Source of the DNA: Caldilinea sp. CFX5
GTDB taxonomy: Bacteria > Chloroflexota > Anaerolineae > Caldilineales > Caldilineaceae
NCBI GenBank assembly: GCA_021405325.1
Contig: QWII01000125.1
Span: 1 to 27,894 of the forward strand
DNA length: 27,894 nt
Direction of reading: 5' to 3'
Part shown: in pieces, positions 15,384 through 27,475 of the stretch
How positions within the stretch are numbered: position 1 is the first letter of the stretch
Layout: each line of letters opens with the position of its first letter
Program-made: the position numbers and the translations under genes
The notes under the pieces: model-generated
The model's input: the letters and a program-made list of their open reading frames with translations, nothing else
Told to the model about the DNA's origin: nothing
Database searches by the model: none

Positions 15384-15452
15384 CGTGATACGTGCTGCGT
15401 GATTCGTGCCCTTCGACAGGCTCAGGGCACGAATCACGCAGCACGTATCACG
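15384..15452. repeat. Perfect 29-bp hairpin with a dispersed CTTCGACAGGCTCAGG core
   Basis: Arms 15384-15412 and 15424-15452 are perfectly complementary with an 11-base loop. The centre is the word CCTTCGACAGGCTCAGG, which I recognise as a widespread dispersed repeat whose spurious translation reads PEPVEG. It lies 17 bases after the stop of the mannonate-dehydratase-like gene and 13 bases before the ATG of the DUF2887 gene, so it covers the place where that gene's leader would be. Confidence 0.85.
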
Positions 15453-19021: not shown

Positions 19022-19042
19022 CCAACCAACTCGTACTGAAAA

Positions 19043-19145
19043 GGTAACGATTCAGCCATCAAAGATTGCGCAGATTCCATAGATTACAGATAAGAAAATC
19101 AATCTGCGGAATCTGTGTAATCTTTAATCTGCCTGAATCGTTATC
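19043..19145. repeat. Imperfect inverted repeat of AGATT-type words
   Basis: Arms of roughly 45 bases (19043-19086 and 19099-19145) share GTAACGATTCAG, AAAGATT and CAGATTCC with small mismatches. The word CAGATTACGCAGATT is a common dispersed type. It lies upstream of the sensor kinase and 76 bases after the 2-hydroxyacid dehydrogenase stop. Across 19022-19220 I see no gene and no convincing promoter for the kinase, so read-through from the dehydrogenase is possible. Confidence 0.7.
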
Positions 19146-19220
19146 TGAAAAGTTAGAAAATGGGTAACGAGCCAGCCTGCTCCTCACCCGTTGCGGATCG
19201 GTGGGGCGCAGGTTTGCCGG

Positions 19221-21253: not shown

Positions 21254-21285
21254 GAAAGTTCCTTTGTATATGATAAAACCACGTA

Positions 21286-21338
21286 ACTACCCTGCCGCTC
21301 CCAGCCAGTCCGTGACTGGCTGGGAGCGGCAGGGTAGT
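21286..21338. repeat. Perfect 25-bp hairpin with 3-base loop
   Basis: Arms 21286-21310 and 21314-21338 are perfectly complementary with a CGT loop. The arms are GC-rich, with no T-run after. It lies 33 bases before the unknown membrane-protein gene and 17 bases from the target duplication of the left MITE. Confidence 0.9.
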
Positions 21339-21362
21339 GGCTACGACAACCGTAAGAATTAC

Positions 21363-21499
21363 GTAGCGACTAACCCCTCCCTACCCCTCCCCTGCTAAGG
21401 GAGGGAACCGTGGTGCGGTCAACAGTTCCCTCCCTTAGCAGGGGAGCGCGCCTGGTAGGCAACCGCTTCTAGGCGCGGGAGGGGTGGCTTGGTAGTTAC
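21363..21499. mobile_element. 137-bp MITE-like element, left copy, with 8-bp target duplication
   Basis: The element starts GTAGCGACTAA and ends GGTAGTTAC; ends are imperfect inverted repeats beginning GTA(A)C. Inside are a 22-bp perfect inverted repeat (CTCCCCTGC.../...GCAGGGGAG) and a smaller CGCGCCT/AGGCGCG pair. It is flanked by AGAATTAC on both sides (21355-21362 and 21500-21507), a perfect 8-bp duplication. It is about 132/137 identical, in inverted orientation, to 22924-23060. No transposase is encoded. It ends nine bases before the stop codon of the monooxygenase gene (21511-21509). Confidence 0.88.
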
Positions 21500-21508
21500 A
21501 GAATTACC

Positions 21509-22903
21509 TCAATCCCCGCTATAAGCCATCTCCGGTTGCGGCATGGTGGCAGTCGCCTGGTTGCGCCGATTGCCCCACAACACCCGCCAGAGAATCTGCG
21601 GATGAAAAAGACTAGTCGGCGCGGCCATCAAATTCATCACCTTGAGAAAAGCGGTATAGACCATGGGATCATGATGGGTGGCCTGATGAACTTTGGCGAC
21701 ATAGGCGTTGATCAGATCAACGCCGGCGGGCTTCTTGCCTTCGGTCTCCGGGTAGCGGAAATCTTCCCCCACAGCCAACTGCCAGGGAATCTCAACGACC
21801 TTGGCCGCCGCCTTAAAGAAGTCGCGCCAGAGACCGGTGAGGGCTGGGCGACCAGTCAACAACTGATCCAGCGCCGCCGCCTGCATGGCCGCCGAGGTCA
21901 TGCCCTGGCCATAGACCGGGTTGAAGCTGCAAATGGCATCACCCAACACCAGGTAGCCTTCGGGGAAGCGCTTTAGCCCTTCATAGTGCCGGCGCAAACT
22001 GCCGGGGAACTTATGGGGAATGATGTCAGAAATTGGCTCCAGCCGCTGGAGCATGTTGTGTAGATCCGGGGCGGGCAGACTTTGAGCAAAAGCCATAAAC
22101 GCTTCCTCTTCCAGCGGGGGATGATCGCCGGCCCAACCGCCGAGGGTGCAGATCCAGCGGTCGCCTTCGATGGGGAAGATCAGGCCCGTCCGTTTGCCGT
22201 GGGGCGGATCAGAAGCGATCATGAGTAGGTCGGCGCCTTCCAGGTCGCCGAGTCTACGGCAGTAGAGGCGAGTAGCGTAGCCGACATTAGCTTTGACAAA
22301 GCTCTCTGTCGGTTTGGCGTACCCCGCTGCCGCCAACCATTTAGGCGACGCCGAGCCACGTCCGCTGGCATCAACAACCAGATGGGCGGTCAACGTGGCT
22401 TTTTCCTGATTGCTATTGCGGCGACTGATTGTCACCCCGGTGATGCGGCTCTGATCGGCGCTGAAGGCCAACCCTTCCACATCGCATTCGTCGATCACTT
22501 GCACATTGGGCAATGCCACCACCTGGCGGCGAATCTGCCATTCCAAAAAGGGGCGGCTCATCAAAGCGCCGATCATGCCGCTCTTGAATTGCTTGCGGTA
22601 GCCGCCAAAGGCGTGCCAGCGCATCCCCAATCCCATATCAGTGACAAAGGCGCCGCCGGCGATTAGGTCATTGACCAGGGTGGGGAAATAGGTCAGCATC
22701 GTTTCCAGCCCTTTGGCTAATAGACCATGCAGATGGCGGGTTTGGGGTTGGCCCTTGCGCGCTTCGGGTTGGTCATTGATCTTGTCCCGTTCCAGCAGTG
22801 TCACTTGGGTGAAATGGTTGCTTAGCACACGCGCCGTCAGCAGACCGGCCATGCTGCCGCCGATCACGATGGCATGGGTTGGTTGAATTGTTTGCGTCCT
22901 CAT
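21509..22903 (-). CDS. FAD-dependent monooxygenase, LasC-like epoxidase/hydroxylase type
   Basis: A 464-residue flavoprotein. The FAD-binding Rossmann motif is AIVIGGSMAGLL (G15-G16-S-M-A-G20) with VTLLERD following. RKGQPQTRHLHGLL and the later GDAICSFNPVYGQGMTSAA complete the group A monooxygenase pattern; the latter resembles polyether epoxidases (LasC/MonCI) and related FAD enzymes. It would use NAD(P)H and oxygen to hydroxylate or epoxidise an organic substrate. The frame is open to a GTG at 22918, but I chose ATG at 22903 because GGAG (22909-22912) is well spaced and the longer start would use bases of a target duplication. It is flanked tightly by two MITE-like elements. The substrate is unknown. 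Confidence 0.85.
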   Translation of the reverse strand: MRTQTIQPTHAIVIGGSMAGLLTARVLSNHFTQVTLLERDKINDQPEARKGQPQTRHLHGLLAKGLETMLTYFPTLVNDLIAGGAFVTDMGLGMRWHAFGGYRKQFKSGMIGALMSRPFLEWQIRRQVVALPNVQVIDECDVEGLAFSADQSRITGVTISRRNSNQEKATLTAHLVVDASGRGSASPKWLAAAGYAKPTESFVKANVGYATRLYCRRLGDLEGADLLMIASDPPHGKRTGLIFPIEGDRWICTLGGWAGDHPPLEEEAFMAFAQSLPAPDLHNMLQRLEPISDIIPHKFPGSLRRHYEGLKRFPEGYLVLGDAICSFNPVYGQGMTSAAMQAAALDQLLTGRPALTGLWRDFFKAAAKVVEIPWQLAVGEDFRYPETEGKKPAGVDLINAYVAKVHQATHHDPMVYTAFLKVMNLMAAPTSLFHPQILWRVLWGNRRNQATATMPQPEMAYSGD

Positions 22904-22923
22904 TTTGATTGTCTCCACTGTTT

Positions 22924-23060
22924 GTAACTACCAAGCCACCCCTCCCGCGCCTAGAAGCGGTTGCCTACCAGGCGCGCTCCCCTGCTAAGGGAGGGAACGG
23001 TCGAGCGTACCACGGTTCCCTCCCTTAGCAGGGGAGGGGTAGGGAGGGGTTAGTCGTTAC
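22924..23060. mobile_element. 137-bp MITE-like element, right copy (inverted), with 8-bp target duplication
   Basis: This copy starts GTAACTACC and ends GTCGTTAC. It is the inverted counterpart of 21363-21499, differing at about five of 137 positions. It is flanked by CACTGTTT on both sides (22916-22923 and 23061-23068), a perfect 8-bp duplication different from that of the left copy. It separates the monooxygenase ribosome site (22912-22909) from any original promoter. Confidence 0.88.
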
Positions 23061-23115
23061 CACTGTTTTTACTTACTTGCTTTGTCCTTGCGTTCGCACA
23101 ACTGGTTGGTTGTAG

Positions 23116-26600: not shown

Positions 26601-27475
26601 TGGCTGTTCGGGTAGAAAAGCGGCTGGCCAAACTGCTCTTTGCCGTAGTCGCCGATCATCTGTTGGGTTTCGGGGGCGGTGAGCCATTCGGCAAATTGGG
26701 TGGCCAGGTCAAAGTTGACGCCAGGGTGCTTTTCAGGGTTCACAGGGATGACGCCGTAGGGATTAAGCAGCGCTTTGTCACCGTTCTGGTCGATGGTGGC
26801 GCCGCCGACTAAAACGGTTAAGCTCGGCAGATTTTCCTGCATGGAAAGCCAGGTGCCGCGATCGGCCAGGGTGTAGGCCAGCTTTTCGTTGGCAAAGAGC
26901 AGCGTTTCGCCCATGCCCTGGCCAACGGAAAGATACCAACCGCTATCGACCGTGGGCGTGATGCCGGCGGCGGCCCAGAGGCTCTTTTCTTTGGTGTGGG
27001 TGCCGGAGTCATCACCGCGCGAGGCAAAAGGTGATTGCGTTTCGGCAATTTTGGGCAATGCTTCTTTCGCCAATGCTAGACCGCCAATCCCAGCCGGATC
27101 AGCGGTTGGGCCGACGATCACATAATCGTTGTACATGACATCCAAGCGGTTGATCCCGTCGCCGTCGGCCACAAACTTGTCTTCACGCGCCCGTGCATGA
27201 ACCAGCACAACATCGGCGTCCCCCTTTGTCCCGATTTCGAGCGCCTGCCCTGTACCCACGGCGACGACATCGACCCGCGCATTATATTTCTGTTCAAAGT
27301 CCGGTAAAATGGCGTCCAACAGACCGGAGTCAGCGGTGCTGGTGGTGGTGGCAAGGCGCAAGACGGTCGGCTCGGTGGTGGTTGTCGCCGTGTCCGGCGG
27401 GGCGACAATCGGCTGACAAGCGGCGACCGTTGCCAGCAGCAGCAAGCTCAAAAGAAAACGGGTAAAACGAAACAT
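26597..27475 (-). CDS. tupA: Tungstate-binding lipoprotein of the TupABC-type transporter
   Basis: A 292-residue periplasm-side binding protein. The signal peptide ends in lipobox ATVAAC with C20 as the lipid-attached cysteine. The family signature LRLATTTSTADSGLLD (about 39-54) and SRGDDSGTHTKE are characteristic of TupA. It should bind tungstate (or molybdate) at high affinity. The ATG at 27475 has GAAGGAG upstream. A ModE-like inverted repeat lies 32-54 bases before the start, so metal-dependent repression is likely. The stop codon is embedded in a repeated TAGGT-type word. Confidence 0.92.
   Translation of the reverse strand: MFRFTRFLLSLLLLATVAACQPIVAPPDTATTTTEPTVLRLATTTSTADSGLLDAILPDFEQKYNARVDVVAVGTGQALEIGTKGDADVVLVHARAREDKFVADGDGINRLDVMYNDYVIVGPTADPAGIGGLALAKEALPKIAETQSPFASRGDDSGTHTKEKSLWAAAGITPTVDSGWYLSVGQGMGETLLFANEKLAYTLADRGTWLSMQENLPSLTVLVGGATIDQNGDKALLNPYGVIPVNPEKHPGVNFDLATQFAEWLTAPETQQMIGDYGKEQFGQPLFYPNSQ

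Follow-up and report, generated by a model that had tools for sequence, protein, structure and literature searches.

What placed two short repeats, in opposite orientation, at the two ends of a single monooxygenase gene of Caldilinea sp. CFX5, and do they belong with the IS66 family of insertion sequences? In the window (the whole stretch of DNA analysed, 27,894 nucleotides) the gene and its surroundings are arranged as follows:

21355..21362: left target duplication of copy 1, 8 bp, AGAATTAC
21363..21499, plus strand: MITE copy 1, 137 bp, left end GTAGCGACTAACCC, right end GTAACTACCAAGCC (reverse complement)
21387-21446: central hairpin of copy 1, with 25-bp arms; copy 1 has a second hairpin as well
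21500..21507: right target duplication of copy 1, 8 bp, AGAATTAC
21509..22903, minus strand: FAD-dependent monooxygenase-like gene between the two MITEs, stop codon 21509-21511
22916..22923: left target duplication of copy 2, 8 bp, CACTGTTT
22924..23060, minus strand: MITE copy 2, 137 bp, inverted with respect to copy 1, with five differences
23061..23068: right target duplication of copy 2, 8 bp, CACTGTTT

The earlier note had described two 137-bp elements in inverted orientation with about five differences, each bracketed by its own perfect 8-bp duplication and devoid of a transposase, one lying 9 bases beyond the stop of the monooxygenase gene and the other just before its ribosome site, and all of this was borne out by the comparison. 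Copy 1 and the reverse complement of copy 2 differ at exactly five element positions (4, 53, 56, 59 and 62; 96% identity), both duplications are exact, no transposase is encoded inside either copy, nine bases (21500-21508) separate copy 1 from the stop codon, and copy 2 lies directly upstream of the gene. Read on the minus strand, the element closes with GTTAC, after which come the duplication AAACAGTG, then GAGACAATCAAA and the ATG at 22903; the GGAG motif of the ribosome site straddles the boundary of the duplication. This ATG, from which the database entry of 464 aa and the relatives in the alignment also start, was adopted, with a GTG at 22918 as the alternative. The chance of an exact 8-mer pair at a fixed spacing is ~1.5e-5 (4^-8), and only one other exact 8-mer match at the element spacing exists in the whole window, a 9-base match at 26720. 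Four of the five differences between the copies are located in the central loop region; those at 53, 56, 59 and 62 fall on every third base and, in one reading frame, would leave the encoded residues unchanged, a spacing that is probably due to chance.

The elements end in GTARCGACTAA and GTAACTACCAA and are predicted, when single-stranded, to form a branched hairpin structure of -84.9 to -95.5 kcal/mol (RNA parameters, both strands of both copies), with stability z-scores of -7.5 to -9.2 against shuffled sequence. The G+C content of copy 1 is 64% vs 56% for the window. Like MITEs, the elements are short and transposase-free, with terminal inverted repeats, duplications of a constant 8 bp and dispersed copies; at 137 bp and without an IS66 transposase they are not IS66 elements themselves. 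The MITEs of bacteria are described as short, non-coding and intergenic, with inverted ends, stable stem-loops and duplications that fade with age (PMC10969869, in excerpt), and the elements resemble them in all these respects, whereas the typical AT-richness mentioned in the same excerpt is at odds with the composition of copy 1. Three other strong palindromes were observed in the window: a perfect hairpin at 21283-21343 (25-bp arms, 3-base loop), of which the left side, GTAACTACCCTGCC, agrees with the IS66 end at 11/14 positions and in which neither an 8-bp duplication nor a proper right end was seen; a perfect hairpin with 29-bp arms at 15384-15452, adjoining a DUF2887 (PF11103) gene; and an inverted repeat of the GTCGTGTAGTCG type at 1222-1318.

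The four ends of the two copies agree with the IS66 14-mer GTAACTACTAAGCC at 13, 13, 12 and 11 of 14 positions, the left end of copy 1 being the weakest. Such similarity by itself is unexceptional: the window has 15 places that score 10/14 or more, and shuffled windows have 5-21. A scan that demanded inverted IS66 ends of at least 9/14 on both sides together with a duplication of at least 7/8 retrieved three elements, i.e. copy 1, copy 2 and a further one at 19044-19144, vs a mean of 0.05 (one in total) in 20 shuffled windows; the combination of ends and duplication thus stands out, because shuffled sequence almost never matches it. Looser scans were uninformative (at least 8/14: 5 vs 1.95 in shuffled windows; at least 7/14: 38 vs 32.6). 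Because the pattern that led to the IS66 end was derived from the window, independence from that end can be claimed for the third element and for all the duplications but not for the ends of copies 1 and 2. The third element has an 8/8 duplication and an interior unrelated to that of copies 1 and 2:

19036..19043: left target duplication of the third element, 8 bp, CTGAAAAG
19044..19144: third IS66-ended MITE, 101 bp, GCAGATT-type hairpin interior, ends GTAACGATTCAGCC and ATAACGATTCAGGC
19145..19152: right target duplication of the third element, 8 bp, CTGAAAAG

IS66 transposases were found in 20 of 46 genomes of the family (genomes are numbered with G, loci with L). An IS66 partner was at first disfavoured, because PF03050 is absent from G039, G043, G034, G035 and G001, so that the two genomes with the closest copies of the element, G039 and G043, have no recognisable IS66 transposase. 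The end pattern GTAACTACCAAGCC with at most one mismatch occurs in 26 of the 46 genomes, in several of them at numbers far above the control (G012: 57+63 vs 0+1; G025: 91+45 vs 0+0; G026: 35+35 vs 0+0; G035: 32+29 vs 0+0). Among 30 loci of relatives with an IS66 transposase, seven have inverted GTAACTACTAAGCC-like ends around it; these elements are 1539-1611 bp long with one long transposase ORF, and five of the seven have perfect 8-bp duplications (L224 is cut by the locus end, L249 has none). L226 and L242 are identical in sequence and lie at different sites between different duplications. The transposases of two of the seven elements were tested against profiles, and both are IS66 (L226 and L223: 138.5 and 148.4 bits for the Pfam family DDE_Tnp_IS66, 296 and 306 for NCBIfam IS66). 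At L222, L228, L234 and L227 there are further IS66 elements, whose ends are variant and whose duplications are exact. As a separate observation, contig C1 of G025, one long contig, has six IS66 transposase genes of equal score and length, and the genome has 136 end-pattern matches, which makes it a good one for dating IS66 and MITE activity.

How IS66 elements transpose is, according to PMC12898284 (in excerpt), insufficiently characterised. A member of the family, ISDge4 of Deinococcus geothermalis (ISBst12 group) is reported with the ends GTGACTACTCAGCA and GTAACTGCTCAGCA, a single ORF and an 8-bp repeat (same excerpt), and two IS66 elements with an 8-bp duplication are reported from Paracoccus (PMC3281130, in excerpt). 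The ISBst12 group, as far as these excerpts describe it, is alike in its ends of the GTAACTACT-CAGC type and its 8-bp duplication, and the IS66 elements of Caldilineaceae likewise have one long transposase ORF. The window elements differ from it in being 137 bp long and transposase-free, and with the IS66 elements of Caldilineaceae they have only ~15 bp of the ends in common.

The earlier note had proposed a search for further copies, and in the genomes of the family it did retrieve close relatives of copy 1 in two of 46 (G043 and G039, E 1e-6); the same two were the only ones matched at 1e-8 in a class-level sample of 396 genomes, with two candidates scored per genome. G001 (Caldilineaceae SJ28) has partial matches of 37-41 bp only. 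No match to the 137-bp element was found in plasmid and phage collections, and in viral contigs the end pattern occurs in 5 stretches, with no second end seen in the ~260 bases inspected of each. G043 has 85 rows matching the element, many of them partial or duplicate. In G039 at least 40 places match most of it (41 rows, one place being matched on both strands; best 40 of 151 candidates), and their consensus, GTAACTACCAACCCCACCC...GGGGGTGGCTTGGTAGTTAC, is built in the same way as the window element. Ten of the 40 copies scored have in-register duplications of 7/8 or 8/8, and the mean agreement of 4.1 compares with 2.3 for shuffled partners (the highest of 2000 shuffles being 3.1). At 22 of the 40 copies only 0-4 of the 8 duplication positions agree, as expected if many copies are old. 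Some copies in relatives were peculiar: L091, L095, L098 and L103 have longer flanking repeats of 11, 16, 15 and 13 bp, and L128 has one of 18 bp with a single mismatch; in the first four the last bases of one element end resemble the target, as though neither the cut site nor the length of the duplication were fixed. In L113, L126, L137 and L181 the hairpin core lies inside longer inverted repeats of the flanks and not between duplications, perhaps as a result of insertion into palindromes that already existed.

The scan rule used for the window was also applied to 210 fetched loci (626,166 bases), which had been picked for similarity and thus are not a random sample and yield no frequencies. 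They contain 29 distinct elements, 19 of them with 8/8 duplications, vs none in shuffled loci. Seven are of IS66 size and 21 are short (70-460 bp); the remaining one, a 742-bp pairing at L127, is probably due to chance. When the interiors were clustered, 16 (L127 included) formed a hairpin type and 11 an IS66 type, the latter consisting of the seven IS66 elements and four short ones (L261, L262, L276 and L279), leaving two singletons. The four short elements are deletion derivatives of Caldilineaceae IS66, with the same ends, duplications of 7/8 or 8/8 and interiors that cluster with IS66, which is not true of the hairpin type. The interior of the window element is a fixed hairpin scaffold and not an IS66 deletion derivative. 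We may further speculate, though we regard it as rather unlikely, that the Caldilineaceae IS66 ends are a modular carrier, with the same 14-bp ends set around several unrelated long palindromes, such as the CCCCTCCC hairpin, the GCAGATT hairpin of 19044-19144 and the interiors of L265 and L268. If this were true, the palindrome between the ends, and not an IS leftover, would make a successful miniature element, and the hairpin would perhaps aid the pairing of the ends or synapsis.

A search for hairpin-type copies at E 1e-5 in ten genomes found them in two (G033 and G037); at the same threshold none was found in G017, G025, G026 and G027, which possess exact-end IS66 elements. The IS66 of G033 has the ends GTGACTATTCAGGC and is inserted at two sites, with the exact duplication GAAAATAC at one and CAAATTGA at the other, and the hairpin MITE of this genome (L301) has the ends GTGACTATTCAGCC and GTGACTGTTCACCC and the duplication CCCTATTC. 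The unusual end GTGACTATTCAG is common to both. In G037 the one IS66 examined has the ends GTAACCGTTCAGAT and the MITE has GTAACTACCAAGCC, so that the ends of IS66 and MITE do not always match. The two remaining proposals of the earlier note, namely a resemblance to the IS66 family (from the GTAA ends and 8-bp duplications) and an autonomous partner elsewhere, are supported by these data, the second at the level of the family: IS66 elements of relatives have matching 14-bp ends and 8-bp duplications, such elements exist in the family, and one genome, G033, harbours both an IS66 and a hairpin MITE that ends like it.

We therefore favour, with a probability of about 0.94, the reading that both elements are copies of one MITE which would be mobilised in trans by a single-ORF (ISBst12-like) transposase of the IS66 family. 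The transposase would recognise 14-bp ends of the form GTAAC-T/G-AC-C/T-AA..., i.e. of the GTAACTAC(C/T)AAGCC type, and insertion at staggered cuts would create the 8-bp duplications. An IS66 of this kind would act, or have formerly acted, in the organism of the window itself. By its insertion copy 2 would have cut the monooxygenase off from its upstream sequence and become its 5' leader, and copy 1 would have become its 3' end, both being likely side effects. Several observations speak against this reading: G039 and G043 lack an IS66 transposase, the four genomes with exact-end IS66 elements lack hairpin-type copies, the ends disagree in G037, over half of the scored G039 copies have poor duplications, the left end of copy 1 agrees at 11 of 14 positions only, and no empty site was seen. 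That copies 1 and 2 were inserted independently follows from the separate duplication of each and from the different outer 8-mers.

The same difference between the outer 8-mers (AGAATTAC vs CACTGTTT) bears on the idea that the pair bounds a composite unit, similar to TIME-COMP or MITE-flanked transposons, that brought in the monooxygenase or can move it: it implies two single insertions and an arrangement that did not arise from movement of the gene as a unit. A single duplication around the outer ends of the pair, which characterises composite transposons, was not found. An inverted pair with all four ends present around one gene does fit a composite, and MITE-bounded composites have been reported (PMC13367494 and PMC3934969, in excerpt); TIME-COMP and the bla-PER-1 unit in these reports likewise have two short-element copies around a gene, but in the window, unlike in them, each copy has its own duplication, and movement as a unit is not implied. 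The closest named relatives of the monooxygenase come from Caldilineaceae MAGs, the best locus of a named genome being that of Caldilineaceae SJ28 (64%, L006), and the closest gene among 46 order-level genomes is 65% identical; monooxygenase genes with 84-89% identity (P0002-P0004) are known from metagenome contigs. A contig search with the monooxygenase alone returned no relative; with an alignment, the best 80 of 372 were kept. The gene neighbourhood is unconserved in 23 loci of relatives, apart from one partial match to the MFS gene, which would suit a gene that has moved, but these relatives are at most about 64% identical and too distant for lost synteny to tell much. Altogether we consider a composite unit very unlikely. 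Still less credible, and in our opinion hardly worth maintaining, is a reading as repetitive extragenic palindromes that owe their spread to a Y1 (REP-associated) transposase or to vertical descent, the flanking 8-mers being fortuitous. Hairpin structure, intergenic position and the many copies would agree with such palindromes. Y1 transposition is not known to leave a target duplication; here duplications are present, as two exact ones and a third element with its own in the window and as matches of 7/8 or 8/8 at a quarter of the scored G039 copies (10/40), and whole elements with an IS66 end on either side turned up in the scan of the 210 loci. One REP super-family is tagged by GTAG (PMC3733652, title), the letters with which copy 1 starts, but copy 2 and the G039 consensus start with GTAAC.

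A further alternative, unlikely in our estimation, is that mobility is ancient and that the hairpins are retained for a function, as terminator, mRNA stabiliser or leader. The copies do lie at both ends of one transcription unit, and in an alignment (A2) of 29 of the 40 from G039, from which 11 rows were excluded as chimeric or diverged (L126, L137, L138, L140, L146, L147, L182, L183, L186, L188 and L189), the stem arms are nearly constant (8/609 differences in hp1, 17/607 in hp2) and the loop varies (252/1264). Yet the ten well-duplicated G039 copies do not have arms that change significantly more slowly than the duplications when counted per lineage (16/648 vs 6/160, Fisher p 0.41; with the duplications counted per pair, 6/80, p 0.026), and a two-sided change was seen at one of 32 pairs of the 29 copies, i.e. 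there is no compensatory pattern. Between 21200 and 23400 no promoter-like match was found vs 0.9 expected, the single terminator-like match lies inside the gene and none in either element, and no Rfam family was hit by the elements at gathering score. Constant arms are equally expected if the arms matter for transposition. Because the arms, in comparison with the decay of the duplications, are not clearly constrained once inserted, we think that it is the mobile element, and not the host, that requires them to be constant.

Both MITEs and IS66 elements are well known, and a MITE family mobilised by an IS66 transposase would be a new family of a well-known kind; none of the excerpts available from the open-licence literature of PubMed Central describes, as far as we could recognise, an IS66-type MITE family from Chloroflexota. 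The reading proposed here would connect a family of hairpin repeats in uncultured Chloroflexota with one definite family of transposases. The ends in combination with the 8-bp duplications serve to find further copies, as exemplified by the third element, which this 28-kb window yielded in this way, and the pair of a 137-bp substrate and an IS of 1.5 kb that co-occurs with it may form a compact system for tests. In annotation, the monooxygenase gene would be treated as flanked by insertions and not by conserved regulatory elements.
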